From: Ceratodon purpureus
Lineage: Eukaryota; Streptophyta; Bryopsida; Pseudoditrichales; Ditrichaceae
Length of the DNA stretch: 64,000 bases
Assembly (NCBI GenBank): GCA_014871385.1
Contig: CM026433.1
Location: forward strand, 7,711,930 to 7,775,929
Direction of reading: 5' to 3'
Numbering within the stretch: position 1 is the stretch's first letter; each line of letters opens with the position of its first letter. Under the pieces are notes generated by a model. It was given only the letters and a program-made list of their open reading frames with translations. It had not been told where the DNA came from and ran no database searches. The translations under genes and the position numbers were made by a program. Of the stretch, positions 3,901-32,410 are shown piece after piece.

Positions 3901-5550
3901 GTTGATGCATTAGGGGTTAAAGGGAAAAATCACTCGTAGAGTTATTGATGTCGATGAATATTCTACTTATCAACTATTATTCTGAACAGCCAACTGATTA
4001 TTTATGATTCACAAGTAATTATTCATAATTGTAAACTCATAGCAAATAACTCATTTAATATTATATTCAACCATATATTATTTAAAAAAGGGGTTTATCT
4101 TATGATCAAATAAGCACAATACTGGAGCCATCCATATTCACTAGCTCTTGCATTCCATGTCTACAAGTGGGATAGCCTGGAAGGGGCGGAGAGGTTCCTG
4201 AACCTCCAGGTTCAGGCCCAAAACGAATGGGAAGTAGCAGCAGGTCCAGTTCCAGCACTTGCAAGCATTCAAATGGAAGACCCATCCGGATTTGGTCCAG
4301 GCAGTCTGGACTCTGTCTGGCATAGATCAAACATTTATTTCGAGCTCACAAATTTTGGAAAGACTTCTGCAAGGCCACAAAACTGCCACATGATTGTCAG
4401 GAGTTTACTCTTTTCACAACAACTCTTGCATCCGGAGTCATGCATTCTCTGTAAATGTGGAGTCCATTCGGACTCCGAACCTGCATGCAGTAAAGTTCCC
4501 GAGTGAAAGTAGACATTAAGAAGCTCCAAATCAGTGATAAGTTAAGACTCAAGAGCTCGGAGTAGGTGAAAAGCCCGGCATCTAACCCAAAGGCTGAACT
4601 GAACTTAATCTTTTGCTTTTGGAAATGGAAACCAGAGTTGAGTGGAATTATTGGACGAATATGCTCATGTTTCCTCCCTGGCAGATGCCTACCTGGCAAT
4701 TAAGCCCTGGAACTTTCGTGGATGAAGGTTGGTAGGAGGTATTATAGAACCACACCGACCTCGTGGACTTAAGTTGAGCCCTCCATCCCCATGCATGAGG
4801 CCGAATCTGACGGCCTTAATTCTATTACGTTGACTGATTGTATTTTAAACTGGGTGGTCTCATAAAGCAGCGGTAGGGCCGTGGATGCCACAAGCCACCG
4901 AGGGATCATGTCGTTGCATCGTACATTACAAGCTGTCGTGGCACTGGAACTATATATGGATCACCGCCGAGAATAAACATTGACGATGGCCCAGGAGACA
5001 TACAGTGCGAGCAACAACTTCAGCAAGTGGATTTGACTTCGCATTCAGTGGTCTTCCGATGTGCTTCGTTGTTGCTTGAGAAGTCTGGTACTAAATTAAG
5101 TGCGTCGTAAATGACGATGTAGAAGGTTGATTGCATGTAAATATGTACGGTATGGTAGTTCTTACCGTACTGCGCCATGCACTGAGGTTACAGTGCTGTT
5201 CGGTTTAGGACAGTTCGATCGTTTCGTCGATTGCAGAAGGTGAAGTAATGCAAAAGAGTACGTCGTTGTGTTGTTGGAACAGCCGCTTTCATTGAGACGG
5301 CTCCCTTTCTTCTTTTCGAAATCAGAGAATCAATAGAAAGTGAATTACGATTTCCGGAAGCAAGCCACAGTAAGCTGGTGGAATTGGATAGAAGTTTCAG
5401 TGGACCCCTGTGCAGCAGAGTAAGCAGCAATGCTCCGAATGTAAAATAGCACAGGAAGGCCTTCTACAAAATCATCTAACTTTATAACCTTGAACATGGT
5501 CCGCTAAGAACTGACGTTCACACAACATTCAGAGTCCAATTAATCTCTGT
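902..5550. other. gene-poor spacer
   Basis: No gene is supported here. The first 3.1 kb is AT-rich, including an A-homopolymer at about 3271-3296. The part from 4100 to 5450 has a more balanced composition but only short open frames, on either strand, with no recognisable protein motif. A pol III A-box-like string near 1120 has no partner B-box. Confidence 0.6.
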
Positions 5551-5557
5551 AACCACT

Positions 5558-6408
5558 AAGGTAGAAACACCTAAAACCACCAACTTAAGGATTTTGAGCC
5601 TTATTTTTGGGGGTTATTTTTGGGGTGTAATTTTCACTTGTTGAAAAATAAGTTTCTCGTAGAATGCAATTTTTTTCAAAATTTTCTTCCCAATATTGAA
5701 ATAGATACAAATTTTTAAACACAAAAGTACTTCATGACCCAAAATTGATATGTAGACTTTTCCATTGTCACACCTAGCTTGTACTAATTTCCACTCATGA
5801 TCCGACCCAAAACCACCAGCTTTTTGAGTGTTTTGATTGGTCAGCTTGGATTGAGTGGTCTGACAATGCTAGTTCAGCTTAGTGGCGGTTCTGGGGAGGC
5901 CTACAGGTTGGTCATGGGGGCGGTGGTGGTTTTGGGGCATTCGACCTTAACTTTCTCAGGAAGTGCATTCATCTGCTCCTTCGTTTGACGCCATGCTTAA
6001 GGTTGATGTACCCATTACCACCACATAACACTTGGCCAAACTGTAGACTTTCCTTGCACCACCATTTGTTAGAACCCATCACCACCATTCCACTGTAGCA
6101 CCCATGAAACAAGCAAAGCAATGGCAAGCCAGGGTTTGGAATAAATTTGTAGAATTTGGAATAAATTGTGTGGTGGTTTAACATATTGACTGAAGTGGTT
6201 TCTAGTGAAACCTACAGGTGGGTTATAGGAAAACACTACTTTTCACTTTGAAAATTTGTATCTATTAATCTATGAGGACTTAAATTATGGAAAAATACGC
6301 GTTATGTAAAAAAACTATCTTCCGATCCAAGAAAATTACTCCCTAAAAATAGAACTGCCACAAATAAGCAAAAACCCTTATTTTGGTGGTTATGGGTGCT
6401 TCAACCTT
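5558..6408. mobile_element. non-autonomous TIR DNA transposon, long terminal inverted repeats
   Basis: The left end AAGGTAGAAACACC and the reverse complement of the right end AAGGTTGAAGCACC match, and similarity continues inward for about 180 bases (5558-5740 against 6228-6408) with gaps. Both ends are flanked by ACT (5555-5557 and 6409-6411), a possible 3-bp target duplication. The interior holds no recognisable transposase. Its termini resemble those of the element at 28634-28917. The superfamily is not resolved: ACT does not fit the TWA preference of PIF/Harbinger, and the left flank reads CACTA while the right does not. It is probably an inactive copy mobilised in trans. Confidence 0.7.
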
Positions 6409-6856
6409 ACTAAGGGATGTGCGGGAGCGGCCCGACGACGTTGCGGTTTTTCTTTGTGTTACTGTACTAGTTACTTTAGAGGCTGCTTAAAATGTTCCCA
6501 AATTGCAATGAGATCAGTGCTTGAAAACGAAGGATTTAACAAAACAATTAAAAACAACAATTATCAATCAGCATATTGCAGAAAATTATGAATCAAATCA
6601 CTGACCAGATTTTGGTTATTACGAAATCTCTCAGTAAATGAGATCCCTTGGACAATTTCTTTGCAGAAGTCAACTTGTGAGAAAATAGAAATGGGTTGTT
6701 GAACATTCCCCAGATGATTCTAGCTACGTCGCACAGTAAATCATTCCCCTGAGAATCCATCCAAAGTTTACAGACATGAACTGTATGGCTAGGTACCAGC
6801 TGGGAACTAGGATTACGTCGACAATATTAAGCAATCCTAGAATCTGGAAGCAGCGC

Positions 6857-6863
6857 TATAAAT
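6857..6863 (+). promoter_or_regulatory. TATA box of the peroxidase gene
   Basis: TATAAAT lies about 172 bases before the peroxidase ATG, in a promoter-like position. It would give a 5' leader of about 140 bases. No other TATA-like string sits closer to the start codon. Confidence 0.6.
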
Positions 6864-7034
6864 GCCGACTGGGTACATGGGAATTCGCACACTTCAGAAT
6901 CCCGTCCTCGACCTGGAGCTCTATGTCTCTCTCTTCTGTCTGGAAGAGCGACACTTGATCACATTGGGCTCGGACATTATTGTTTCGTTCAGCTTCGACT
7001 TTCATTTTGACCTTAGGGGCTGGAGTTATCAACG

Positions 7035-8439
7035 ATGGCTCGGGGTCACATGTTGACCGTCTGTTTGATGTCAGTGATGTTAGCATTGTCAATGAGTCAC
7101 TTCGCCGAGAGTGCGCTTCAGGAGGGATTCTACAGCGCGATGTGTCCCCAGGCGGAGGCAACTCTGTACAACACACTCAAGGACTTGACTGTCAACGACC
7201 CGGATCTGCCTGCCGTCCTCCTCCGTCTACATTTCCACGACTGCTTTGTCAGGGTAAGTGTTATCCCATTCATCACCTCACACATTATACCGGATTGTAA
7301 TATGGCGGAGTAGTTTACATTTTCAGGTGTGAACTCTGCAGCGGGTCCTGAATCACGTTACTGCAATATGAAGCAGTTATAATTTCTCTCTCCCTTGACC
7401 CAAGAGATTGTCCTTGCACATGCATTTCAACGCATGGCGGTTATTCTCTATGTGAATTCCTTCGATCAGTGCCTACCTCTACTCTGTTAACTCATCACTA
7501 CCTATATCGATCCCAGACTGAAGTAGTGTAGCACTTTGTACCAATCCCCTAAAAAATCTGAATTGAGTTTTTGAATCTGTACGATTCGTACTTTTACCGA
7601 CAGGTACGGACTTGCAGAGGTGCTTCTGGTGATGTCGATGGAACGGCATTAGTGTTGTGAAACTAACTCGATGTCCTCGCGTGCAGGGATGTGATGCATC
7701 AGTGCTTCTGGATGTTCCCAAGTCGGAGAAGACCGCCCCGCCCAATGCTCGTCTGGAAGGCTTCAATGCCGTGGACAGGCTGAAATCCGCAGTGGAGAGT
7801 CTCTGTCCTGGAGTGGTCTCATGCGCTGACATCCTCGCGTTCGCCGCCCGCGACAGTGTGGTCCTCACTGGCGGACCCGGGTACAATGTCCCCGCAGGAA
7901 GGCGCGACGGAAGAGTTTCGTCGGCGACCGAAGCGTCCAAGTTCCTACCCGACGCGCAGTCGAAGGTGCCGGGGCTCGTGGCCAACTTCGCCAACCAGGG
8001 CCTTTCTGTGGAGGACATGGTGGTACTCTCAGGAGCGCACACGATCGGTGAGGCGGCGTGCCATCACATCGACAGCAGGATTTACGACTATCCGAGCAAG
8101 TCGGGAGTCGACCCCAATATCCCAGCTGATTACGCGAAGAAGCTGAAGAAGAAGTGTCGCGAGCGTGGCCTCAAGGACCGGACTTTCGACCTGGACACCA
8201 GCACCGATCACAAGTTTGATTCCCAGTATTATACCAACTTGATTGCCAAGAAGGGTCTGCTTGTGTCGGATCAGGCGCTGTTCGACGACAAGTCGACTAA
8301 GCCGTTGGTCGAGAAGCATAAGAAGCAGGCAGTGTTCTTCGAGGCGTTTGCGAAGGCGATGGTGAAGATGGGTAACATTCAGGTGCTCGAGGGCACGCAG
8401 GGGCAAATTCGGAAGAGCTGCCGGTCTGTGAATAAGTAG
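7035..8439 (+). CDS. secreted class III peroxidase (two exons)
   Basis: Exons 7035-7253 and 7687-8439 join in phase 0 at AGG|GTAAGT...TGCAG|GGA to encode 323 residues, the usual family length. Residues 1-27 form a signal peptide. The distal haem site is RLHFHDCFV (R64, H68), followed by GCDAS of the calcium site, and the proximal site VVLSGAHTIG places the haem-binding histidine at H191. Cysteines for the family's disulphides are present. Such enzymes oxidise phenolics with hydrogen peroxide in the apoplast, for cell-wall cross-linking, lignin-like polymer formation or defence. The intron sits directly after the distal-site exon, a position common in this family. The reading frame is intact. 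The natural substrate cannot be told from sequence. A minus-strand frame over exon 2 is only a shadow. Confidence 0.96.
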
Positions 8440-8755
8440 AGCGGTTATAATCTTGAGTCCGTGACAATGTATATCATTATTCACAAGTCTTGATAAGTGA
8501 GGGAGAGGTGGTAATCTTGTTCAATTAGAAGTAGGATTTCTTCGTGTACAATCTAGGTTTTGTTTGCATATTGCTGAGTAGAACAGAATTATCAGACGGA
8601 ATGCAGTCGAAACAGGGTAGACGAGTATGAATATGTAAGGCATAGGTTGCCAAATTCTGGGTCGATGTAGAATTAGATTTTTTACGGCACTGAAGAGTTC
8701 AGTTTGTAGATCAAGGGAACAACCTATCTGTGGCCCGGGTGTATAAATGTTCTTC

Positions 8756-8761
8756 AATAAA
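8756..8761 (+). terminator. poly(A) signal of the peroxidase gene
   Basis: AATAAA lies 317 bases after the stop codon in T-rich surroundings. It is the first perfect hexamer downstream of the gene. Plant signals are loose, so the exact cleavage site is uncertain. Confidence 0.5.
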
Positions 8762-10127
8762 GACAGGAAAATGATCTGTTGCCTCTTTGTGGAAGTTGCA
8801 CATGTTATTTGAAGTTATAAACTGGTAATTTTGTAATGCATGGTTTGAAAATACGACTACTGGTACACTGGTCTTACTAAACGATGAATGTACTTAGTTG
8901 AAGAGGTTGTTTGAATATGTTTCAGTCCTCCTACATTACCAGCATCGTTTTAATGAATGTCAGTTTACAAAGTGGTTCTGATGTTTCTGCTAGGTGCCCA
9001 GTCATGTGCCGAAGTGACCTTGCTCATATTAGTGACCAATACTGAATATCACCTTAGTACGTAATTTTGTTCCCGCAGACATATTACACAACTTCATATT
9101 TTATCCAGCTGCATGTTAAATATAAATATTAAACAAACGTGCCGAATTATATTTTCTATTTTGATTCTAAAAAGGAATAACGAAACATACAAAAATCTCT
9201 TGATCTTAAATGTGCAGCTGCTGCCGTCGGGACAGGCCTCGGTTTGCACACCATGATACACATAGAATCTGAATACAAGTAATTTCTGACGTGAGTATTA
9301 CTTGAGAATCGAGATAGCCTTGCCTTGTAACCCTCTTATACCCAGTATATGTGCGGGTGTGGCTAGTTGAAACAGCGTTACAGCGGGCGCAGGAAAGATT
9401 GACGACCAGCTTGTTGAATTGATTATCCAGCGCCCCAGCATCTGTCCACCTGCATCGGCATCTTGCGCAAGTCAACTTACTATCCACCTGCATCGGCATC
9501 TTGTACAAGTCAACTTGTACACATGAGGTATATGTGACTTATTATATTCTTCCAAGAAGACCAGGACCGTTCCCTTATCAGCTACAGTCATTTGGCTTTG
9601 GAAGTGGGATTTCTAGTCAATTAGTACTGTGGAATTGTTTCAGCTAGGTAGTGGAATTACGTCTAAGTCAAGTTCTGTGGACTTGTCTGCAGTTTTGACA
9701 TTGGTAGCGACTCATGAAGCAAGTACTCTCTCCCAAGTGCTGGTGTAGTGACATCAAACTTGCCATGGAACAGATATCTTTTTCGGTTCAGGCTTAGAGT
9801 GTAAACTTGTATCCATATGCATTACACATAGAGTAGATCCACATGTGTGTTCTTGCACACTTCTGCGTAGTTCACTTGTCGTGAGGAACGACAACAGTAA
9901 AGATTATGTAGGCTTTTCACTTGGTGATATTATCATTTACTGCTTCACCACAACTGCATGCTTCGGTTCTTGGTCCCAACCCACTTGATAGTCAACTCTG
10001 TTAAGTATTCCACACTTGATTGTGCTATTTCCACAGACCGAGGTTAATAGTTAGAACTAAGATTAAAAGGGAGGGAGATGTATGAAGTAGGTTGAGAAAA
10101 TTTGGAGCTGAGGATGAATTAGAAGCC
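8762..10127. other. spacer between peroxidase and CACTA element
   Basis: No gene is supported. One imperfect tandem duplication of about 38 bp lies at 9444-9518, both copies containing TCCACCTGCATCGGCATCTT. The remainder is unremarkable. Confidence 0.5.
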
Positions 10128-10130
10128 TCT
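10128..10130. repeat. target-site duplication, left copy (TCT)
   Basis: TCT directly precedes CACTA at 10131 and recurs directly after TAGTG at 23967-23969. A 3-bp duplication is what CACTA elements make. Confidence 0.85.
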
Positions 10131-11104
10131 CACTACTAGGAATTTGGGGTCTATGCAACGTCCCTGGTGTAGCATTATACACTAGAAGTTGATGGTCGTC
10201 AGGGCTGCTAGAACGTAGCTCCACTAACGTCCCTGACGTTGCTCCCACTAAAGTTATGCCAGGGGTGTAACGCTAGCTACGTTTTGGGTCGTCTGTGAAC
10301 GGGCGTTCTCATAAGAAAGGGACACCGTGGCCACGATCTCTCTGTTCGCCACGTGTCAAGGGTAACTGTAATTACACGGTGGGATACGCAGGCGTAACTT
10401 ATTCTGCGATCAATTTACCCATTTTTTAGAAGTTATTTTTATTTACAGTATTCATTATCACATTTCATCTCCCTCGGTGAAAACGAACTCAGTAATTCAG
10501 TTTCACGTTTATAAAGTTCTGAATAGGCAGTTTTACTTTTTTTTTTTTTTTTTTTAATCGACCGCATTTTGGGGCCCAGAGTATATATAGTATGAACCTC
10601 ATGTTTTAATTTTTGTGACGTGTCATTCTCCTACTGCACGATTTATCGATCACCGCATCCGTCACGTGTTGTATTGCTATATGTTCCTATATTCTGACTG
10701 GTCGTTTCATGTCGACAGCAGAATATCAACCGACACTAGTTCGTCATACATCTATTTTTAATCAAACAAGTATAGCCAATCAGAGAAATAGAACAGTAGA
10801 TCCTCATTTTCCAATTTCAGCCTAACATGTGGAATTGCTTGTTAAATCGGACGGCCTCAAAAATACATTGAAGTCGATGTCCTACTATTCAATTCTGGAA
10901 TGTACATTAGTAGTTCCAAATCGTTCTCACTGAGCCTATACTTCCGCGATCTTCGGTTCCCTCCACGATTGTTCGAAAATGAGAGATTATTCCGGTAAAA
11001 AATTGTTCCTACAGTAGAAAACGCTACCAAACCAGTGACTATATCCTACACAAAAAACCCCGAAACAACATGGCTCCTGCAGGTACTGATCCATATAGAT
11101 ACTA

Positions 11105-14100
11105 TTAGATGGCGTCTTCATCGTCATCCGAGTCGGTCCCTGAGTTAGTCCCTTCAAAGTGCTCCATAGCTTCGACGTCTTCGGAGCCTTCTTCTCTTTC
11201 TGAATCCGATTCTCCCCCGGAACTACTCTCCCTGTCGGAGCTGCTCCTAGAACTACCACTGTCGTCATCGCTGTCGGTGCTTGAGTCCTCTACTTCCTCC
11301 TCACTCGAGTCAGAACTGGACGATGCAGCGGAGTCATCATCTTCCGAACTCGACTCCAGCTTTATCCCCTTCCCCTTCCCCTTCCCCTTCCCCTTCCCCT
11401 TCCCCTTCTCCTTCCCCTTCCCCTTCCCTTTTCCCTTCACAGCTTCAGTTATGTCCCGCGCTACTTCCATTGCTTCATTCATCATCAAAGAGGTACTCCC
11501 TGTTTGCACTTTCTCCACGGCTGCTTGAATGCCATTCTCTTTTGCATACACCACCTCCTCCTCAGTTGGATTTCTGTCGAATTCGTCCAACTGCCATACA
11601 CGCGGACAGAGCGAATGAGTTTCACTGAAATAAATAAGATGATGACATGAGGTATCCAACTAACATGGCCGGGGCACAAATGGGGTGAGACCCGTATGTG
11701 CCATTTGAAATCAACTAAGCCTTAACGAACATGGTAAACTGCAACATGTCCTTCTCCTAAGCGGAATTCAGAGTTCAGCGGAAAGATGACTTACAAATAC
11801 ATTTACAAGGCCCTGGACTCCCCTCGGGCCTAACTTGTGTGTGAAGCCCTTCCTCCTGGTGCGCTCATTGGCAGCCACCTTGCATTTTTCAGACTTTGAC
11901 TGGTACTTCGGGTTAGAAAGTGAATCAAAAATTGCATTCCAAGAGTCTAAAGTTACCCCACCAGCCACAGGGACACTGTTTTTATGATGAGCCCTAGCAA
12001 AGCTTTTCCTCAACCTAACCCGCCTCTCCCTCATATTGGATCCTATCATATGCATAACATAGGTATCGTCCCAATCACCAGGATATAATTTTTTTAATCT
12101 AAGTTTAAATCTGACTTTGGTTAGTGGGTCCTGCTGGGACCAGTCCAAATGCCATGGGAAGGTATAAGCAGCTCTCTCAAATGCGAAATTCTTCATATGC
12201 TTCCAAAACTGACCAATAGGTTGGGCCGCGCTGTTTATTTCGCAAGGAGGCACATCTCTGATTACATCCCATGTCCCTAATGAAGAAGGATCCGAAAACA
12301 ATATGCTACCAGAAGGAGAAGAACAAGCAACCGGATTTGAAGAATCACTGGAAGCACCCCTACCCTTCCCACTTTTACCACGCACCTCTTTAATTTTCAT
12401 CGTGATAGGGATCTCCGACTTGCTCCTCTGACCTTTAGAACTCTCTCGTGGGCTCACAGTCGATTTCATTGTGAGTTTATTTTTCTGCTCCTGTAGCTCG
12501 TTCATTAGGGTCTCAATTTGGGCCAAAACCGCCAAGTCCGTGTTCCCCGCTACTTCAGTCGATTCCTTCCCCTTCTCTTTAGTGTTCTTTGACTTCTTCT
12601 TAGAATCCGTAGCTGGTTTCTTCTTGCCCTTGCAGCTGGATCTTTTACAACCCCCTTCTCCTGCTTTACATGAGCACTTGGACCTACTGGTTCGCTGTTT
12701 AGATCCATTCCCTCGCTCGAGAACCAGGTCCTTGCATAGCCCCTGCCCTCAAAAGTCAGAAGATGCGAATACAGTGAACAGTGATCTCAAAAAAGAAAAA
12801 GAACCAATCATATCAAAATGAATGCGCTTGTTAGATAATGCTTACATCTTTGTTTGCTTCTAGGAAAGCTGCTCGATCCGGCACGGGGAGAGTTTTTATC
12901 AAGGACCGCAACGTAGATTTGCAGACTAGGCTGCGCACCGTTTCCCCGGGAGGAGGGTTCAGTCGTGCCGCGATGCTCGGTGATATCTGTTTTGGTGCAG
13001 CATCTACATCGACGACAATTCTCTTAGTTGAGGGTTTTCTAGGGGGTCTAGATGCAGAGGGTAAAGAACTCTTCATAGGGGACTTAGGAAAAGGCTGAGG
13101 TTGGATACAGCAAGGGAAAACAGGGGAAGACGGTGACGGGGGAGAGGTAGGCGCTGGAGAAGGAGGCGGGGGAGAGGTAGGCTTTGGAGTAGGTGGCGGG
13201 GGAGAGGGAGGCTCTGGAGATGTGGCAGAGTTTTGCTGGCCGTTGCGGTCTCCTGTCCACCAACAACGGGATCATTGTCTGTGTCCGCCATTTGTTGACA
13301 TCCGAATTCGGTATCGAGTGTCCGTGCCACCGAGTTCTGTCGAGGTAGGGGATTTCCGCTGACTTCAGTACGTTTCTGTGGCACCGCAGAGTTAAGGGTC
13401 GTCGTCTGCAGGTCAGACTCTGCAACGCATGTCTCCTCGGGTAACTCCGAATCGACCATCTCCGGAAACCCAGGAAATTCATCCAGTGAGGTTAGTATAG
13501 GAGCAGAGGTACTAGGTCTTTCAGAACAAATCATACGAGGGTTTAGAGAGGTATGAGCAATAGTGATTGAGGTTGTGGCCGGACCCTCCTGTACTACACC
13601 TGAGATTACGTTTCCAGCAGCAGATTTTGCACCTCTATGACCCGACGAATCTAGGGTGAAGGAGGAAAGAGTACTTCTCTGGTGATCCTCGATTCCGGAC
13701 GGTGTCGACGTTAGTGGAGGCTTCGACCATGTTCGCGATATAAACTCCTCGCCTGCTGGTACTGTATTTTCACTGGGATGTACCTCTGTGTCAATGAGAG
13801 CGGTAGCGAAGGGATATCTCTGTGTTGTAGCTACTTCCCGGGGTGCTTCAGTGGGAACTTCTGTGGAAGTAGGGTTCGCGCCATCAGCCATTTTCGACGA
13901 CGGACCTGCTGCTGGATCAACCTGAAATTCGGACCTAGCTCTGGGGCATGGCGATGTGTTAAAATGAGACACTACTTCATTTCTGCTGTAAAGCTTTGAT
14001 GCGAGTAGAGTATCTACAATTTCCCTACCAGTTCCTCCAGCGTAGATTGGCCCCCCCTCCTGTAAATCACCTGCATCCAACTCGTTGTTATGTTCACCGT

Positions 14101-14833
14101 CTTCTTCGCCGGTCCTGTCTCCAGCTTCATTCCGTGCCATACGACCCCCTGCATTCCGATCGGCGAGGAGCACCGTGTCCCCTCGAGACCTAGAAGCCCG
14201 ACTGTTTGCTTTACCACTTCCCGTCCGTGAGACCCTGCCTGCGTTCTCGTCAGTGCGCTGCTCCGAGGGGGTGTGGGCTGTCTTTGTGGCCACTTGACTG
14301 CTTTCCGATATCCCAGCAGAACTTCGAGTTATACCACCCTGCACCTCTCCGTCATTGTCTGCAGCTCCAGATCGTGTTTTCTTGAGGCCCCTTTTCTTTT
14401 TGGCAGGCGATGTGATCACAAGCCGTATGTTGTGACTCAATGAGTTGATCTCCAAATTCAATTGGTCAGAGTCTTCCTTCGTAGCTGCGTCGAACTGCTC
14501 GACCAATGCGTTGGACTTGTGTCGCTTCTTCGGTGTGTGCGCTGCTGTTTCGGAAACATTTCGAGCGCGGCTCCTGGTGCTCGTGGCGCCTAGGGGAGTG
14601 TGGATCGCGGACACTAGTTTCTGTCTCCGGTGTGGTGAATCACCAGGCAGGGACTTCCGTTTCGACTCACTGAGGGCTGCTGGACCTTCTTCTTCTCTGA
14701 CTCGCTTTCGCCCTTTTCTTCCAGACCCGCTCCTTGCAGATTCAGGTCTTCTTCTTCTCCCGTCGACGGATTCCACTGTTTCTCTCTCATCGTCAACGCC
14801 ACCTTCTTTATCGCGTCGGCTCCTCTTGGGCAT
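11105..14833 (-). CDS. TnpA-like CACTA protein (plant Ptta/En/Spm Transposase_24 type)
   Basis: My model runs on the minus strand: 14833 to about 13250, about 13250 to 12846, 12742-11795, and 11590-11105, about 1140 residues. The N-terminal 500 residues are basic then low-complexity. A proline-rich stretch follows, then a cysteine cluster (KCSC, GGCKRSSC, about 12676-12635), a short coiled-coil-like piece, and the Transposase_24-like core with MRERRVRLRKSF and SEKCKVAANERTRRKG. The last exon has a Lys-Gly run and an acidic serine tail. Introns 12845-12743 and 11794-11591 keep phase. Between about 13270 and 13230 the frame changes without an obvious intron: either an unusual splice or a one-base shift. 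Proteins of this type bind the subterminal repeats and assist the transposase. The start is the ATG before PKRSRR. Confidence 0.75.
11365..11438. repeat. hexameric (CCCCTT)n microsatellite inside the TnpA-like gene
   Basis: About twelve copies of CCCCTT with a few substitutions. On the minus strand they encode an alternating Lys-Gly tract in the last exon of the TnpA-like gene. The hexamer length preserves frame when copy number changes. Confidence 0.9.
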
Positions 14834-14905
14834 TGTAGACGACTTCCCTTGCGCCCCCCCCCAGATCCTAGAGAAGAGCACAAGGGTTAGTCTGCGTGCT
14901 TTCAT

Positions 14906-16183
14906 TAGGTCGACTCTGACATATCACATATCGTATACTCTAACCTCTTACGACAAAGACGAAAATTTGGAATTGGAACATCAAGCTGACAACGTCGGAT
15001 ATTTCTGTATTCAGGTTTAAAGGGATTCGAGGGTTACCACAATCTGAAGCGACACGGCCGTGACTTAAAAGCCAACTTACAAGTAAGTCCGAATTGTCTG
15101 GACGATGGACATGGCGAACAGAACACAGGTCAGTAACTTCCTAAACAATTTGGTTTCTGTGATTCTATGTATCGAAGGGCTCACTACATTCGCAACAATG
15201 TACTAATTAGAATACTTGGGTTCTTATTTTGATCGACTAACTTCTTTACAGATAACAACGAAAAAAGACAAATGGAAATTGCAACCCCCACAAACTGAAA
15301 TCAGTGATCTGCAGGGTGAAATGAGCTGACCTGAGCTGAGCGTATGTCACTGAAGTTGCTGGCGCTGAACAAGACTGCACACGGTGACAACAGAAAACAC
15401 AACTAGATAGGGAAGAGGATAAAACGAGAAATGCGACTGAGGGAAGTGTGTACGCAGCGGACCCTATAGAGCTCAGAGAAGGCAGGAGATGGAAAAGTAG
15501 GAGCGCATTCTTCACATACTACAAACTCTGGAGAAAATGTGATCACGCTCCTCGACAAAGACGGCGCATGAACTACTGTCGCAGCTACCTGAACTCAGTT
15601 CTCTCGGGACCGGTGAAAGTGAAGTGCGAGAACGGGGGGCTCTTCACGAATCGATCGGAAAACAAAGCCAGGTACTTAAACCCTAACCATAAATGTCTTT
15701 TTTTTTTGGCAGTATGTTCCTCATATGTACATTTGGAAGAGCCCAAAGATCCAGGGATTTGCTGACAGTTTCCGTCCTTGTCGTAAATCCGTTAGTCAAC
15801 GGCTTATACGGATGTAGATTTTCAGGGGATTAAAATGTACATACACGAAACTAACATGCAAATGAACTTTCTAATAGTTCGGATGTGAGTTTATGTGGCA
15901 TATGTTACGCCGTACGTACATTCGTCGATGTACTTTATGACGGTTTCGAGTCTTATCTGGTTCCAAAAGCGAGTAACGGCGGGAGGGGGCGGTGATATGG
16001 AATTCGCAATAAAATTAAATTACCATTACATTTAAACTAATTCAGTTAGTTCTTTAAATGAGTTTCAGAATTGAAGTGAATGGTGTAAAACTTGACGATT
16101 TCTTAGCTAGAGTTCCATGGGCATATTAAGGAATGGTACACCTGAAATTGTTATTTGTGATTTCAACAGCAGAATCAGAAACC
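14906..16183. promoter_or_regulatory. divergent intergenic region between the two CACTA transposition genes
   Basis: About 1.3 kb separates the two opposing start codons. It must contain both promoters and any untranslated exons. Short open frames on either strand show no motif. A 3' splice-like TTTCAACAG precedes the transposase ATG at 16184, so a non-coding leader exon may lie in this interval. Confidence 0.5.
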
Positions 16184-19100
16184 ATGAGGACACACCGACC
16201 AGTGGAAGTTTCTAATGTTGTCCCAGTAAGAGAATTATTCGAAGTGAGAGGAGAAGAAGAAGATGTTCAACCAGTACAGCAACGGTGTAAAAGACGGAGA
16301 ACCAATATCCCAAGGAATGACCCGAACAGTGCACCACAATACAGAGTCTATTGTCCCTGTCGAAGGTGTGATTTGAAATCGAAGCCAACTTTGAGACTAC
16401 TTCGGATTTGCGACGAACACATAGCTCTTCACGGTGTTGGTGTAAAGTGGAAGGTAAGACATTCGCCGGTCCTGTTCACATGCCTTAATTGATTTTATTT
16501 TGCAAAATTGAAACATGATGTCATTCTCGTCTTCCCTAGTGGAAGTACTCACCCTTCTGTAATTAATTGAAAAAATAATAAGATGGCTGTGCTCTTATTA
16601 CTCTCCTGTCCTCACCTCCTAGAAACTGTCTAATCACTGTTCATTAATCAGAATTTAATTACCGCTGAAATTAAAATACATTGAGGTCAAATCGAGGGCA
16701 CACTAACGACTTGGAACAGTAACAGCTGCAGTAATGAACTCGTGGTTTGGTACTTCCTTACATTTAAAGGGTCTCCAATAATTATCATGTATATTAGATG
16801 TTATCATTTCTGTATTATAATGCACCGTCGACCATATTAATTTCAGAGTAGATGCATGAGGTAATTATACAGGTGTCGAGATAGAAGTGGTAGTGCAGCA
16901 GTGAATCGTTCTTAAATGTAACGTACCCAATCTTTTCTGAATCAGTATTTACGCCATACTTGATATATATATTTATCGTTTTGGAAAAAATGAGATGTAA
17001 AACGTTGGTAAAATTTATGATCGACTTACGAGGTTCAGGGCGTACTGTTCTTAAATGGTTAGTCTTACATACACAAAGTGAATTTCCCTCAATTTCAACT
17101 AAAGAAATTTGAATTCATTTGTTTCCATGGCCATGTACTGCTAAAACGTGGACTCTGCGCTTTGGGTTTAGCTAATTACGTTTTATTTTCAATCAGCCTG
17201 TGTATGACTCTCAGATGGAAGGAATCAGAGGACGCGGTGCACCGGGCGCGTTAAATGAAGGCGTTCCAACTGGTAATCCAAGTATTCCACGTGGCTTAGT
17301 TCAGGAAGAAGCTCAAGGTGTTGATGAAATCCAGGAAGCAGCATGGGTAGACGACCTCACATTCGAGGATATGATGGCCCACCACGGTGCAAGAGATCCA
17401 GCGGTCATCAGGGTACAGTCATCCGCAGGCCCTGATGCAGATATGACTTTCTTAGAAAAGGAAGACTCCACTAAATTGTACGATGGCGCAGCATCAAGTA
17501 GGTTGAAGATTATAGTTGAGTTTCTGAACCTCCAAGCCCGGCATGGATGGTCAAATCTAGCGATGGACGACATTTTTTCTACAATCTCTGATCTAGTCAT
17601 TGCTCCCCATCTTAACTCTAAAATGCGTCACAGTAGACAGGAAGCTAGGAAAGTTATCTCTGACGTTGGCTTGGACTACCAAGTAATACATGCTTGCCCC
17701 TGTGACAAAACCCTTTATTTTGGGACTCTGCAGAATGCAACATTCTGCCCTAAGTGCAAAATTTCACGGTATGGGAACACCACAGTAAAGAAGACTGTGC
17801 CCCGCAAGGTATGAATTCCTTTTTTCAGTAACGTATCATTTGCCAAGGTTTTTCAGCACATACTGACTGACACTCATATGATTGTAGTATTTACTATCAT
17901 TTATCTCGTGTCAGAAAATGTTTTTTTTCCCAGTCATTCCAAGACTCCTTGCTCACCTCCGGAGCATGGAACTGGCACCCTTGATGTCTTGGCACGCCGA
18001 TAATATGAGCAGGGATGATATAATGAGAGTTCCTGCAGACAGTGGGGCATGGCGACAGATTTTGGAGAACCCTAAATTCTCATGTATGGCGGAGGAGCCT
18101 CGGAACGCATGGCTAGGCTGTGCTATGGACGGGGTGAACCCATACTCCAACAACTCAGCGAGTCATTCCACTTGGCCGATTATGTTAGTTCTGTACAACT
18201 TGCCTCCATGGCTATCAATCCAAAATCGACACATCATGTTGTCAGCAATTGTACCCGGTAAGCTGAACCCAAAAATTTTTGTTTGACTCACTCGAAAGTT
18301 CTCCATAATAGATGGACATTTTATTTATTATGGAAATTTAGAAATTGCAATCCATATTGCAGGGAAGAAGAAAGTGAAAGACATGAATACATATCTCCAG
18401 CCCATGATAGCTGAATTGCGAACTCTATGGGACTCTGGAGTTGATGCTGTAGATGTTTCTGCCCCACATGACAAGAGACATTTTAAGTTGAAAGGCATGC
18501 TATTGTGGACAATGCATGATTTTCCGGGGTACGGGGTATGCTCATCACTCCAAACCCAGGGACATCACGCTTGTCCCCCTTGCGGTCCCGATCAGCTGGA
18601 ATCACACCAATCCAGAGCGCTTAAGAAAGTTATTTATTTGGGGCATAGAAAGTACCTACCATACGGGCACAGACTACGCCACCCACATCATGATAGAGCT
18701 TATGGCAAGAGGAGGGCTCGTCGACCACCTGTTTGGACAACTGTGGAATATTGGAGGAGGAGATGGCGTCTTGTTAAGAGCAAAGAGATTACCATCAAAC
18801 AGGCTGGTGTAAAAGCAAAGTCAATTTTCCACAAACTGCCTTATTACAAGGTAAGCAGTTTTGTTTTAGAAAATTTTCATTTATTCTGCAACATAACTAA
18901 CGAATTGTACATATGGGTAAGGTATTTTCCTGTTTTAAATTATCATTTCCGTGGTTGATAGTATTTCGACAGTGAGCTATGGTCAACTGAAGAATCTATT
19001 ACTAACCGTAAATGGTAGGTCAGTTTGATTAAGTCACAGACAGTTTTGAATTTTTTTTATTTTCCATGTAGTTGGTTGACATTTTACTCCAGTTCTCATA

Positions 19101-22100
19101 ATCAAATAATTCGAATCTATGCATATTTTCTGATTTCGATTTATTTCTATTATTCTTAATTTTATCCTTTTTATTTTTCCCACTCATTCATAATATTTAT
19201 TCCTTTTTTTTAAGCCAATTTGGAAATGACCGGATACCTTGAACTCATATCAAGGACTTCCTTACCAAAAGTAATGAACACTGTATTCTTTATTTTCAGT
19301 ACATTTTATTGTACGTCTATTTTTATTGTAAGTTTATTGTTACCACTATTTCAAATAATAGAACGATGGAGCCATTTTCTATTTTTTCAATGTATAGGAC
19401 AATACCATTTTTTTTAATTTCTGTCAATACATTTCAGAATGTCGAGTTCTTGGATTTCCAACACTTTGTCGGAATTCACAGTACTGTTATAAATGAACTC
19501 AGACTTTGTTTAACCTCATTAATTTAATAAAGAGGGATGTGGTCTGCACTTTCCAGGTACCGAGGGACTGGTTTTCATATGGAGGGAGTAATCGTATGAA
19601 ATTTGAAGATAAAATAACATAACATTTACACCGTTATTTGGCTTCAGAGAATATACAATTTGTTCATTTAAAAAATTAGTATACCGTATTTTGAATTTCG
19701 TCTTGTTCTTTAGTGATACTAATAATTCTCACAGTCTTTATATTTTCCTTTATTATTCTTCATTTTATTATTTTTTTGTATAATTTTTTTTCTTTTAATT
19801 TTTTTAATCACCTTTATAATTTTTTTTTAACCTTTCATGGTTCGACATTGTGGCAACCGCCCAGCGGTTGGGACAATGTAAACCGTGACGTTTCAACTCC
19901 TGTAGAGAGGTCCCTGTTACGAATGCACAGTGGCCAGTTCTACACCGGAATCTTTAAGGTCAACCTGGATGGTATATGTCATGTTCAGCTTTATTTATAT
20001 TATATCCAGTCTAAGACATTGTTCAACTAACCATAGAAGGAGAGTTTCTTAAGATATCAATGAAGGTAAATACGTTTGCTTTGTAAGAACATGCTTATGT
20101 CAAAGAAGGATTTGTCTTATGTTTATGAATTCCCAGATGTTGGGTCTTAATCAGTTCCCAATTTACTATATGTCTGCATTCTGCACTGCTATGCCTCTTA
20201 CTGCAGTGATTTTATTAAAATACTCTGAAATTGGACTCTTGCAGGACCTACCTATTCCACACTTATTGGATCCTATGCATATAGAGAAAAATGTGTGCGC
20301 TGCGCTTTTCAAGACCTTTTCAAATTGCAAGGGCACCAAGGCAGACAGCATTGGCGTTAGAAATGCTTTCAAAGAATTGGGAATACGACCCGATTTGCAT
20401 GCAGAGGAGGATGGCCGGGATAGCAAGGGAAATGTAAAGTACAAGTATGCGAGGGCCCCTTGGATCTGGACCACCGAAGAGTACAACTCAGTCATTGAGT
20501 CTATCACCTCTACTAGAACTCCCACGGGGTATGGTTCTTCCTTCTCATCAAAGTTTAGTGATCAAAAGATTGTTGGTATGAAAACCCACGATTATCATAA
20601 TCTTTTGCACGACCTACTTCCTATTGCCATAAGGGGCACTTTAACAAAAGAAATACGAGACATTGTATATCGATTGGGTTCTTTATTCAAGTGGATTTGT
20701 TCGAAAGAAATCAAGAAATCTGAGATTATCTTCAAAAAGGTAGAAGCAGCAGAAATATTATGTTTGATGGAATTGCATTTACCGCCCTCAATCTTCGATA
20801 TTCAGTTCCACTTGATAGTTCACCTCGTAGAGGAAGTAGAACTTGCGGGTCCTGTCTCAGCTAGGTGGATGTACTTTCTAGAGAGGTATATGAAAACGTT
20901 GAAAGGGTTTGTGAGGCAAAAGGCCCGTCCAGAGGGCAGCATGGCTGAAGGGTATATTGTGTCTGAGGCTATGTTCTACATCACTGAGTATGTGCAACGG
21001 CTCTACCCTAAAGCACCCCGATTATGGGAATCTGAGGAGGATGTGCGTCTCTCTGGAATTGTTTTACCCAAAATGAAGACTGAACAGATACTGAAACCTG
21101 TCCTGAGAGAACAAGTGCATAACTTCCTCCTAAAAAACTCTCCAGCATTTGAGAAATGGCGCACCAGGTGAAGTTTGTATTCTTTGTCTAATTTATATTA
21201 TTCAATCAGTGAGTTTCCACCTACTATGTACTTTCTTGAAATGAAAGATATATTTTTAAAACAGCATTGGCTAACAAAGTGTATTTTCCCATACTGTCGT
21301 ACAGATATAGCGCAGCGAAATCAGGAAATCCTAGTTTACCTAGTCTGAAGGAGTGGGCTCTACCGGCACTGCAAGCTGCTCAAAGAGAAGGGGAAGAAAT
21401 ATCTTCAATGGAAATTGACATTGCAATTGGACCTAGAGTGAAGGCAGAATTCTTCTCTGCCATGTGGGCGTATGGACGACATTTCCGAATTATGGAAAGG
21501 GACATGAACAAGAAAAGTACGTTTGATTGTGGCATTTCCTCGATGTACGACGAGGATGGAGAAGGGACGGAATACCTTGGTTATGTTGATAATATAATTC
21601 AAGTCCAATTTGAGAGCTTTGACACAGTACTAATCAAGGGAAAATGGTATAACTCCATTATACGGCGAGGGGCAGGGGGGACTTTGGTCGAGGATGAATG
21701 TGGGGTAGTTCGCATAAAGGCAGGGAGGTTCATGTCAGAATCAGCAAGTACAGACGAACCCCTTGTATTTCCGAAAGATGTTGCTCAGGTATTTTATGTG
21801 GATGATACCATTAACCGTGGATGGAAATTAGTAGTCCATGTTAATACCAGATCGAAACGAGTTTTTTACAGCCGTTCTCGAGAATCAGGTGGATCATCCG
21901 ATGGAGAGGATGCGTATGACACTTTCTCGGAAGAGGAACGAGGCCCTCAACATCGAGGCGATACACTAATTGCCGTGGAGGCAGACGATGTGGCTGGAGA
22001 AGACGGTGAGGACGTCGACGAGGAGAGCGGTAGGGATTCGACGGGGGAAGAGGAGGACAGTTCGGAAGGGGACAGCGACTCCGTCGATTCGGAAGGGGAC

Positions 22101-22214
22101 GAAGGTCGGCGTCTTCGGAGACTGCAAGCTCGTCTTGGATTGCGTGATTTGGAGGCCCACGAGATCGAAGAACTCGAGAGCGACGGTGACTTTGAGAACG
22201 GAAGTGAGTTGTGA
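16184..22214 (+). CDS. CACTA transposase (TnpD/Tnp2 family), six exons, intact
   Basis: Exons 16184-16453, 17197-17808, 17915-18257, 18363-18850, 20245-21167 and 21305-22214 all use GT-AG borders and keep phase, giving about 1181 residues. The N-terminus has the CPCRRC zinc-binding motif typical of Tnp2 proteins. The Tnp2 core follows: FFPVIPRL, CAMDGVNPYSNN with candidate catalytic D366, LWTMHDFPGYG, and PHLLDPMHIEKNVC with candidate D580. Next come a DUF4218-like region (MKTHDYHNLLHDLLPIAIRG, ARWMYFLERYMK) and a DUF4216-like region (YVDNIIQVQF, VFYVDDT), ending in an acidic tail. It cuts and moves the element by binding its ends in the nucleus. The 1.4-kb intron 18851-20244 is AT-rich and empty. 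I saw no stop or frameshift. The start at 16184 is the first good ATG; an upstream exon is possible. Confidence 0.93.
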
Positions 22215-22630
22215 CATATCTCAGCAGTGCCCACTAATTAAGCAAGCAGGTTCGCTTTTCCAATTCCGCCTCTGTAATATCTTTCGTTATGAGTAAGTGG
22301 TCAGCTGCGGTCTCTCTGTTTTGAGGTATCAACTCCCTGGTACTCTCCTAGGTCTAAACCCTAGAAGCTATGTACTGCTGTCGTATTTGTATTGAGAGGT
22401 TAGTATGTGTAATATTGTGATGTGTTCTTGACCTCCTCTAATCATACACGTCTAAATAGATGGCATGAGGTTTCTTTAAATTCCAGGGTCTCCTTCCAAC
22501 TCGCTAAAATTGAAAGATTGGTACTGAACCTGGGGTGTACAGTTAGGATTTTGTCATGTTCGTCTCGGAACAACCCCGTTTCGCTGTTTTGTACTAACCA
22601 CTGCTGTTTACTGGTCTCACACAGTCCAGG

Positions 22631-23349
22631 ATGGGTGGAAACAGAGAAGAATGTCGGAAACATAAACGGAGGAAGAGAAGGGATTTACGGTTGACATTTA
22701 AAGAAAGGGCTGATGAGCTCACGAGAGGTTGCGACATGCTCCTGCAAGACCTAGAAGACCTAGAGGCTGAGTTCTACAATTTCTGGCGTTCAATCCGTCC
22801 CTTTATGGAAGTTACAATTTTTTTGGCACCTCCCATCCATTCCATGTAAGACCCCGTACAGATTTTTTGCAGTCGTCCTTGTAATTAATGAGTTCACAAT
22901 GCCGACCATCTAGCCTTCACGACTAATTATGCTTCTATTCAGAAACCCGGACTCTCAGGCCATTGCTTCATTAACTCTTCGGAGACTGCTCATGGAAGTG
23001 AAGTGTCTTGGAGCACAGTCTGATGCTACTCTGGATTACACAACTACGCATGTCGTAACTTTTAGACCAAGCTGGACAAACCTCGACCCTAAGAACATTC
23101 TGCGGAGGTGAGGATTTTTGGGAATACAGATCTCTACTTCGATTTTTATGTTGCTACATATGTTCGGTGGACCACTAACATCTCATTCTTGTATGCAGTT
23201 TGGGAGATATAGAGGTTCAACGTATTGTAACTCTGAGCCCCTTCTGGCATCCTAAAGGAGAGAGTATCAAAGTAGTGTATCATGATTGGTTAGTTGATTC
23301 CTTTGCTGCTGAGAGGTTGCTTTCGGTGCAGCCGTACTTGGCAATGTAG
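22631..23349 (+). CDS. BRCT-domain protein carried inside the CACTA element (three exons)
   Basis: Exons 22631-22845, 22943-23107 and 23199-23349 splice in phase (2, 2) at GT-AG sites to give 176 residues. A basic nuclear-signal-like stretch RKHKRRKRRD lies at residues 9-18, then an acidic helical linker. Residues about 58-176 look like one BRCT domain: strand VTIFLAPP, helix LTLRRLLMEV, CLGAQ, strand TTHVV, and the hallmark tryptophan in VVYHDWLVDSF followed by LLSVQPYL. The layout reminds me of the C-terminal BRCT of DNA ligase IV, but this is recall, not a search. It lies 417 bases after the transposase stop, same strand, inside the right terminus. It may be a captured host gene, or alternative 3' exons of the transposase transcript; the frames I tried for joining to that transcript hit stops quickly. 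BRCT domains bind phosphoproteins or pair with other BRCTs in DNA repair. Confidence 0.72.
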
Positions 23350-23966
23350 TCACGATCCATATGAATAAGAAATCAAAAAAATTCAATAAATTTCGAAAAA
23401 GAAATAGCAGTGATCTCAAAAAATTTCAATTGAAAATATAAGTAAACTGTGTGGAATTCATCTCTGCTTGAAAAGACCGTGTTATCAGAGCACTGGGAAG
23501 ATCTATCTGATCCGATATTACTTTTCCTGGATTTAACTTTACAATGCTGCTTAGATCTAGGTAATACAATTAGAAATTCACAGAACATACTGTTATGGTC
23601 GATAATGTTAAACACATTCATCACTCTTACGTTAGTTACCCAGAATGTTAAAAAAAATTAATGTAAAAAACTGTCGAAAGTGTAGATGGTGTAGGCAAAA
23701 CGAGGCCCAATAAAAAAAAAACAACTTCCGCCCGGTGTAAATATGGCTGAAGCTTTTCCGGATCTGGGTTATTCTATTCAGACCGTGTCAGAAGTAATAT
23801 TCCCAAGACACATCTCCTCAAGGGAACTCCCATGGGAACGCCAAACGTAGCTTCGCCATGACACCGTGCCCAAATCTGCTGGCGAGACAGCTTTCACACA
23901 AAAACGTAGTTTTTTTCATAAACGTAGCTTATTAGACGTAGCTTCTGCACAGAGATCCTAGTAGTG

Positions 23967-25217: not shown

Positions 25218-25754
25218 TTAGCGTTGCTTTAAGGATGCAATCATCCAATAATAAAGGTAGTTCCCACAATTCTCCGGGGTCAAGATCTTGGACAGGGCTT
25301 TAGTGAGGATGGGATCCATCACGGGCACCTTGAATTTGAGACGTGCTGCAACAAGTTCATCAAAATGATCTATCACAGCATTTTCCAATCCATTCATGAT
25401 GACATTGTCTTGCAGGACAGGCGCCAGGTACAGCAAGACCACAAACAGCTTTAGACCCTCAATGGTCATCTCGTGAAGTTTCTCTGGCACTGTAGCAATG
25501 ACCCTTTCTTCAGTCCTGGTTTTGAAAATGGCATTAAACACAGGTGAGTTTGCAGCCAGCACACACGTATGAGCTCTAAATCTAGAGCCCCCTTTGGCTT
25601 CCAGTGTGATGTCTGTGTTGAGCCCATCCAAAAGCATCTTCATGGTTAGATTGGAACGGATCATGAATGCAATGTGCTTCCTGTTTGTAGCTTCTGGTGA
25701 AATAAACTTGGTGATGTCAATGTTCAAGACGCTTGCACCACTGGAGGATGCCAT
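25218..25754 (-). CDS. BTB/POZ domain protein (single coding exon)
   Basis: An intact 178-residue frame. Residues 1-40 are a short leader. The BTB core follows: LNTDITLEAKGGSRFRAHTC, VLAANSPVFNAIF with the conserved D48, H62 and the SPVF turn, and then IEGLKLFVVLLYLAPV. The C-terminus (ILTPENCGNYLYYWMIAS) resembles the helical extension of plant BTB-only proteins. Such proteins usually act as substrate adaptors for CUL3 ubiquitin ligases or as dimerising scaffolds. A GTAAGC donor at 26689 and a TGCTGGCAG acceptor near 25787 could mark a 5' leader intron. The spacing of two conserved BTB segments looks somewhat altered (LYLAPV in place of the usual LYTD), so substrate recognition may differ. 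No partner can be named. Confidence 0.85.
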   Translation of the reverse strand: MASSSGASVLNIDITKFISPEATNRKHIAFMIRSNLTMKMLLDGLNTDITLEAKGGSRFRAHTCVLAANSPVFNAIFKTRTEERVIATVPEKLHEMTIEGLKLFVVLLYLAPVLQDNVIMNGLENAVIDHFDELVAARLKFKVPVMDPILTKALSKILTPENCGNYLYYWMIASLKQR

Positions 25755-31194: not shown

Positions 31195-32410
31195 AAATTA
31201 CAAAATGTCAAGAGTTACAACGGGCAGAACTTCCATCTGTGGAAGTTTCAGCTGCGTGCTATTCTGTAGGGGCAAGATCTCATGGGTATTGTGGATGGCA
31301 CAATACCGATGCCCACAGACACCACCTTACAGCAAACATGGCTACGGAAAGACAATCAGTGCATATCACTTCTATGCAAGGCAGTCAATGAGTCTATACT
31401 TGAAGTACTGATGAACTGTGACAGGTCGAAAGCCATCTGGGACAAGCTTAAGTTATTACACAACCAGTCCGCTCACGATTTTGTCCATCACATACAGCAA
31501 CTGTTCTATAAGTGTAGGATGGAGAGTTCCAACACTATTGCGTCATTTCTTGGTAAACTTGAGGTTATCAAGAGTTTTCTACTCAACATGGGTGATAACT
31601 CAATCAGTGATGCTAGTTTGATCGCAAAGATCTTGGCAAATCTACCGGCCAGTCGCTGTAGTGTTTTCTTGTCCGCATGGGATAATGTAGAAGACGCCTC
31701 GAGGACCCTCAATAACCTCACCATCCGTCTATTACATCACGAGACTAGATTAAGAAACGAAGAAAGAGAGGAAGATAAGGTTGCTGTAGCGTATGCGGCG
31801 ACCTATGGCAAGGGTTCCAGCAGTTTCACTAGTCATGAATCTTCACAGTCACAGACAAGTCGACCACCGCTCACGTTTGAGCAACGTCAAGAGCGGAGGA
31901 AAGAGACAGATGAGCACAAGAAAGTCACCTTTTGCTATAAGTGTAACCGACTTGGACACTGGGCACGAGAGTGTCCTCTTAACGAGAGCAAAGGTCATGT
32001 TGATTTGCTTGAAGAGCCGAAGCTCACGCACCAGTCATCATAGCTGCCACCACCCCCTTCCCATCGAGCCTACATGACGACCACCGCCGGAGCGGATCTT
32101 TCATCGTGGTATATGGGCAGCGGTTGCATCGACCATATGACCAACGCCATCAGCTTCTTTTTGACGTACACTGATATATCGTACGAAAAGCGAACAGTGC
32201 AAGGAGTCGGAGGGATAGTTCTTGAAGTCGTCGGGATTGGGGATGTTAATATCCAAGTTCACTTGAGCGATGCTGAAGAGTTCACCACACTTACAGAAGT
32301 GTTGTTCGTTCCCAAGCTTGGGACCAGTCTCTTTTCCTCGCAAAAGGCTGCTCGGAAGAATGGGTATTTCTACGTCTCTATTGTGATGGTCAGTGGAATC
32401 AAGTCAACGT
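31195..32410 (+). mobile_element. Ty1/copia retrotransposon fragment (gag and start of protease)
   Basis: A fossil of the 5' coding part of a copia element. The clearest portion (from 31282) has the gag signatures GIVDGTIPMP, AIWDKL and a CCHC zinc knuckle CYKCNRLGHWARECP. It is followed by the protease/pre-integrase-like segment around 32090-32410 (SSWYMGSGCIDHMT, LFVPKLGTSLFS). Integrase, reverse transcriptase, RNase H and flanking LTRs were not seen, so it is truncated as well as broken in a few places. The lack of recognisable ends suggests an old insertion. Confidence 0.85.

Follow-up and report, generated by a model that had tools for sequence, protein, structure and literature searches.

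A BRCT-domain gene inside a CACTA element

The window, by which we mean the whole 64,000-nucleotide stretch of Ceratodon purpureus DNA that was analysed, holds a CACTA (En/Spm) element whose left end is the best partner of its right end among the CACTA sites compared within 5,001-17,000 (Table 1). On the plus strand the right end reads TCCTAGTAGTG and is followed by the same TCT that precedes the left end, and these matching inverted ends and flanking trinucleotides therefore delimit a bounded element with a 3-bp target duplication. ACGTAG-type subterminal motifs lie close to both ends. The transposase gene matches PF02992 in two frames (E 3.9e-25 and 6.9e-26), as expected of the tnp2 type, and with end repeats, target duplication and a tnp2-type transposase all present the element belongs to the CACTA (En/Spm) superfamily. 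Open frames on the opposite strand are possibly the element's second, tnpA-like gene, an assumption that we make from the usual CACTA layout; a Pfam search of the two longest (11768-12535 and 13073-14905) found nothing at E 0.01.

Between the transposase and the right end, where a sequence-only reading had placed a BRCT gene, lies a three-exon gene for a protein of 176 aa with a basic N-terminus, one predicted BRCT domain and the C-terminal end ...VVYHDWLVDSFAAERLLSVQPYLAM, and both this model and the element borders agree with that placement. The transposase stop is 416 bases from the BRCT start codon, and the BRCT stop codon ends 617 bases short of the element's last base. The splice sites are GTAAGA/ATTCAG and GTGAGG/ATGCAG, and splicing at these sites is predicted from their conservation across copies. 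By itself the window protein matches the Pfam BRCT family (PF00533) at E 0.0033 and 18.1 bits, under the cut-off of 21.3 bits; all 10 transposon proteins of our alignment A2 match that family at E 1 or better (best 4.1e-6), the copy L030 scores above the cut-off (25.1 bits), and Trp157 is identical in all ten A2 proteins. A BRCT fold for the window protein is probable from its homology to the second BRCT (BRCT2) of DNA ligase IV (LIG4), described below.

Table 1. Coordinates of the features in the window and of related loci elsewhere in the genome (contig:position).
Feature	Position	Strand	Basis or remark
CACTA (En/Spm) element, 13,836 bp	10131..23966	+	inverted ends CACTACTAGGA...TCCTAGTAGTG, TCT on either side
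Left terminal inverted repeat	10131..10141	+	CACTACTAGGA, TCT just before
Opposite-strand open frames	11105..14905	-	open frames alone
Multi-exon region of the transposase gene (Transposase_21 (tnp2) pieces, DUF4218, DUF4216-like)	17200..22214	+	Pfam; exon borders approximate
PF02992 pieces of transposase	17918-18286 and 18374-18958	+	Pfam, two frames
PF13960 in transposase region	20119-21171	+	Pfam
PF13952 in transposase region	21267-22214	+	Pfam, under cut-off (DUF4216-like)
BRCT gene, exon 1	22631..22845	+	basic N-terminus, helix, first BRCT strand, ends ...APPIHS
BRCT gene, exon 2	22943..23107	+	NPDSQ...THVVT...KNILR
BRCT gene, exon 3	23199..23349	+	SLGD...YHDWLVDS...YLAM, stop
Right terminal inverted repeat	23956..23966	-	CACTACTAGGA on minus strand, then TCT
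Host LIG4 end (locus L047)	C5:11017060 (L047, C5:11015000-11019400)	-	protein search of genome
Tandem-BRCT copy L032	C13:2052864-2054366		upstream of distant CACTA transposase
Tandem-BRCT copy L033	C2:18697204-18698706		upstream of distant CACTA transposase
Tandem-BRCT copy L035	C4:8657972-8659521		upstream of distant CACTA transposase

Further copies and purifying selection

Searches of the same genome (362.5 Mb in 151 contigs, one contig of 110.5 Mb) revealed that the gene is present many times over. A DNA search gave 20 matches including the window, the 19 others at 66-87% identity, and protein searches gave at least 171 and at least 160 exon-wise matches that group into at least 113 BRCT loci, the weakest of which are uncertain. 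A search of related genomes for CACTA copies with this gene was one of the checks proposed with the sequence-only reading; the copies in the same genome speak against a one-off capture. Models were built for 39 loci, with some intact model at 24 of them (some doubtful) and none at 15. A strict set of 14 full-length copies close to the window, picked for being intact, has both introns in phase 2 in every copy and an exon 2 of 165 or 168 bp, and with their GT-AG sites these copies uphold the earlier claim of an intact frame and of splice sites with matching phases. Within the 10-kb surroundings of 18 other copies, same-strand transposase pieces lie upstream of 15 and are found at none of the remaining 3. 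In a survey of 18 copies that includes the window and omits L026 (without an exon-3 match), 9 have a similar right end that begins 501-612 bp beyond the BRCT stop, 2 more have one about 1.7-1.8 kb off, and no convincing one was found in 7. Matches at C6:88550168, C6:14203501, C6:105695241 and C2:14741289 run in one frame across the intron-1 point, some with a stop, and may mark a subgroup of the BRCT gene without intron 1.

The BRCT gene family is under purifying selection, as the proposed substitution-rate test among copies revealed. A codon model gave an omega of 0.205 (lnL -3563.36) versus an lnL of -3716.33 for omega 1 (the best of six kappa values), a difference of 153, and the pairwise ratios were defined for 72 of the 91 pairs of strict copies and lay below 1 in all of these (median dN/dS 0.147, highest 0.40). 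The first 20 residues, which are basic, are looser (median 0.59) and the remainder is tight (0.11-0.14). Across nine copies with both genes the median omega was 0.149 for the BRCT gene, whereas the core of the transposase gave 0.037 (from 28 of 36 pairs); the BRCT gene is the less constrained of the two, which counts against an end-joining explanation. Amino-acid-changing distances of the two genes are correlated over these nine copies (Mantel r 0.72), with 6 of 5000 permutations as high.

Evidence for descent from host DNA ligase IV

Evaluating possible host sources, we found that a profile of the 10 transposon proteins, made without LIG4, matches the BRCT2 of host LIG4 at 92.9 bits when spliced and 66.1 bits as an unspliced exon, with E = 6e-28 against 451 host pieces, versus 12.1 bits for the next host BRCT piece. 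The competing host BRCTs were nine PF00533 matches, all unspliced, and we reject these nine places as the source by that difference in score; LIG4 is not among the PF00533 matches, which means that this set may be short of other host BRCTs as well. In the whole-genome protein search LIG4 is among the matches listed (E 1.6e-5) and none of the nine PF00533 places is. The gene structure points the same way: host LIG4 reads FLLPPIHS-T-NIDSQ with a phase-2 intron after the S, and the matching stretch of the transposon gene is FLAPPIHS-I/T-NPDSQ, interrupted by intron 1 at the LIG4 position and in the LIG4 phase (genomic GT-AG borders). Compared with LIG4, the window domain has 33% identity across residues 73-173 and 41% across exon 2. 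Together, the profile score and the shared intron indicate that the BRCT gene descends from the second BRCT of host LIG4, a stronger relationship than the mere likeness to the C-terminal BRCT of DNA ligase IV noticed at first.

That the host locus encodes LIG4 is supported by a ligase domain (PF01068) that lies upstream in the same orientation and by a linker that matches PF11411 (DNA_ligase_IV) at 24.4 bits, above its cut-off of 22.1. A PDB search with 180 aa of the host protein including the linker returned four rows, all DNA ligase 4 (best 3ii6_X, E 1.3e-7), and 110 aa of BRCT2 by itself returned nothing at E 1. The catalytic piece gave five LIG4 rows together with seven rows of WD-40 and WRAP-T chains, which are more numerous and partly ranked above and which we take as artefacts of a short query. 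Host LIG4 seemingly also has an extra C-terminal tail exon past BRCT2 (KKRQRVSETPQSSSRRE...).

The transposon protein has kept only the end of its LIG4 ancestor. The ligase catalytic domain, for which 176 aa leave no room, and the first BRCT (BRCT1) are missing, no XRCC4-binding hairpin is recognisable, and BRCT2 and a helix-2-like segment ahead of it remain. None of the 10 A2 transposon proteins matches PF11411 at E 1, and LIG4 helix 1 is not recognisable in the transposon proteins. With the LIG4 row in the profile, D43-L44-E45 of the window protein, in the exon 1 helix, aligns with D798-L799-E800 of human LIG4, and E45 is Glu in 8 of the 10 A2 proteins; two tandem-type proteins have no E800 equivalent. 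The helix-2 match is weak (3ii6_X at E 0.61 without the LIG4 row and 0.013 with it), and in both PDB profile searches TopBP1 chains outrank LIG4, matching mainly the last 35 residues; among the BRCT chains listed, the best stretch reaches back into the helix before the domain only for LIG4. The LIG4 row of alignment A1, behind the 110-aa PDB search and the helix alignment, has R at one junction residue where the spliced reading has T; the 180-aa search, the profile scores, the PF11411 match and the tree use T.

According to PMC4786802, human LIG4 binds XRCC4 through residues 759-770, which form a hairpin, through helix 1-loop-helix 2 (771-803) and through a section of BRCT2, with hot spots that include F766, E800 and R814; helix 2 (E800) and BRCT2 touch XRCC4, helix-2 fragments compete for it, and BRCT2 by itself did not block XRCC4-LIG4 assembly in human cells. 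PMC8224183 describes the complex as stabilised by the BRCT2 contact. The C. purpureus genome has XRCC4-family domains at four places, one at C4:1192915.

Distribution among CACTA groups

Same-strand BRCT loci lie within 10 kb of the listed transposase loci in three of four CACTA groups, and each group that has them keeps them on one side. Of the 22 transposase loci in the window's own subfamily, 18 have such a neighbour, always downstream and 1.3-3.0 kb apart; the second group has one at 9 of 24, again always downstream; a distant group, whose transposase is about 40% identical, has one at 27 of 130, always upstream and 2.8-6.0 kb apart; and the fourth group has none listed at its 7. Position-shifted controls (1000 per group) reached maxima of 2, 3, 5 and 1 in the same order, with chromosome lengths rounded or guessed in some cases (C1, C10, C23, C123). 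Distances are those between listed start positions and all neighbour counts are lower bounds; the transposase rows used were 22 + 7 of 124, 24 of 128 and all 130, and the BRCT loci exclude host LIG4. The second group omits two short transposase pieces (C6:17506830 and 17507439), some 5 kb away from a BRCT on their strand, and becomes 10 of 25 if they are added. At least 54 of the 114 BRCT entries (the 113 loci with one C12 locus entered twice) are near a listed transposase, and 60 have none among those listed.

The sequence-only reading had a BRCT gene travel inside the element, and such a gene does lie there. "Captured piece" would be too weak a description, because at least two CACTA groups carry it regularly and at fixed positions, though many CACTA copies are without it. 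With no listed BRCT within 10 kb at 103 of 130 transposase loci of the distant group and 7 of 7 of the fourth, the gene is not needed by all CACTA elements. Five equal-score transposases (C7:832073, C13:11365187, C4:1059159, C10:8083535 and C23:40510), perhaps recent copies because their scores are equal, have no listed BRCT within 10 kb, and a young CACTA family of this kind may lack the gene or have it in diverged form.

Several copies of the distant group have two BRCT units, and three of these gave spliced models of 331, 331 and 335 residues with four introns. Intron 2 has the same position and phase in the single and tandem types and is missing in LIG4, which suggests a single capture with later movement within or between elements. 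In a tree the window-type copies (97/94) separate from the rest, as does the tandem type (99/97), and the deep forks are not resolved because LIG4 sits on a long branch that the program flagged. The two BRCT units of L033 are closer to each other than to the units of L035, as if evolving together.

Possible roles of the BRCT protein

The sequence-only reading suggested that the protein could recruit or modulate end joining at excision sites. Judged by its ancestry and by what it has retained, its most likely role is that of a decoy or adaptor that acts on the end-joining complex of the host, to which we give about an even chance. A CACTA lineage would have taken up the 3' part of host LIG4, comprising the second BRCT and the preceding helix, which would have acquired a start codon and an N-terminus that is basic and resembles a nuclear signal, and would have been retained as an extra gene. 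Its protein would enter the nucleus, where the inherited surface may contact the host XRCC4-LIG4 complex at breaks made by the transposase; a decoy or adaptor is suggested because ligase domain, BRCT1 and XRCC4-binding hairpin are all gone. Ligation at the empty donor site could thereby be slowed or redirected, leaving the element to be restored by repair that uses the sister copy; the protein might instead hold the repair complex near the transposase. Against such a role count the XRCC4-binding hairpin and helix 1 that are not recognisable, the weak helix-2 match, the tandem-type proteins with no E800 equivalent, the finding that human BRCT2 by itself did not block XRCC4-LIG4 assembly, and the transposase loci with no listed BRCT nearby. 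We put forward more tentatively, and consider rather doubtful, the wider proposal that a cut-and-paste transposon encodes a dedicated end-joining modulator, derived from the XRCC4-contacting end of LIG4, which would restrain or redirect ligation at excision sites, and gains copies when homologous repair refills the gap.

The main rival is a re-purposing of the LIG4-derived domain within the transposition complex. The domain would then have nothing to do with end joining and would serve in assembly or nuclear import, by binding to the transposase, to the tnpA-like protein or to DNA at the ends or subterminal repeats. This is possible, if not the reading that we would choose: with no PF11411 match, the principal hairpin for XRCC4 binding is missing, identity to LIG4 is down to 33% over residues 73-173 and 41% over exon 2, and tandem BRCT forms arose in another CACTA group. 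The divergence of the gene also parallels that of the transposase in the nine copies (Mantel r 0.72), but any linked gene would be expected to do so. It seems unlikely that the protein leaves the break alone and instead suppresses host defence or DNA-damage signalling, perhaps by drawing off a phosphoprotein or a silencing factor in the manner of a decoy. BRCT domains commonly bind phosphoproteins, and a gene that is selected yet missing from some CACTA groups behaves as accessory genes often do, but the LIG4 ancestry points to end joining first.

The BRCT exons could be an alternatively spliced C-terminal end of the transposase, given an acceptor-like AG a few bases ahead of the ATG in several copies and a window transposase frame that ends near GTGAGT; however, among the sequences listed L015-L018 and L020 have no acceptor directly before the ATG and conservation comes after it, and in the window the donor and acceptor phases do not fit, which makes such a fusion very unlikely. 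CACTA elements often carry gene pieces, and 15 of the 39 modelled loci have no intact model (with some of the other 24 doubtful), as might be expected of a neutral captured fragment whose frame is intact by chance. Against this stand the gain of 153 in lnL when omega is left free instead of fixed at 1, the 72 of 72 defined pairs (of 91) below 1, and both introns retained in 14 of 14 strict models, a set picked for being intact. For the family as a whole the selection tests and conserved splice sites lead us to reject neutral capture, which we regard as having almost no probability, and one dead copy could still be neutral.

Relation to known systems

The element resembles plant En/Spm (CACTA) elements in its CACTA ends, 3-bp target duplication, Transposase_21 (PF02992), DUF4218 and DUF4216-like part, and differs from them by an extra conserved gene, derived from a host repair protein, at a group-typical position. 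The protein shares with DNA ligase IV a BRCT2 by homology (human 3II6 with XRCC4) and a helix-2-like segment ahead of the domain, and the nearest relative that the genome searches turned up is host LIG4, whose intron agrees in position and phase. Unlike DNA ligase IV, the protein is encoded by a transposon and has no ligase domain, BRCT1 or recognisable XRCC4-binding hairpin; it starts independently, has a basic N-terminus, and its gene contains one intron more. Additional genes in CACTA elements are described for the red alga Chondrus in PMC6431247, where enlarged En/Spm families have 4-5 open frames; a word search of that review finds neither BRCT nor ligase. In Paramecium, Ku is reported to be coupled to DNA cleavage (PMC4148214), a likeness in that transposase-like cleavage is tied to end joining, but there the repair proteins and the process are the host's, whereas here the transposon carries the repair-protein domain. 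In the open-licence literature we found no description of a BRCT gene in a CACTA element or transposon, nor of CACTA tied to ligase or end joining, and titles and abstract openings on extra CACTA frames or captured host domains gave no account of a LIG4-BRCT capture.

Cut-and-paste transposons rely on host break repair. A CACTA family that carries a conserved, LIG4-derived gene may be able to steer the repair of its own breaks, and a repair-protein domain under selection in many CACTA elements offers a concrete, testable handle on such control. Mosses favour homologous repair, and a switch away from end joining would therefore be of special interest there.

Beyond the element the window holds a BTB/POZ-domain open frame on the minus strand (25218-25754, Pfam E 1.5e-9), about 1.25 kb past the right end, and a 253-aa open frame on the plus strand (31282-32043) for a copia-type gag with a zinc knuckle.
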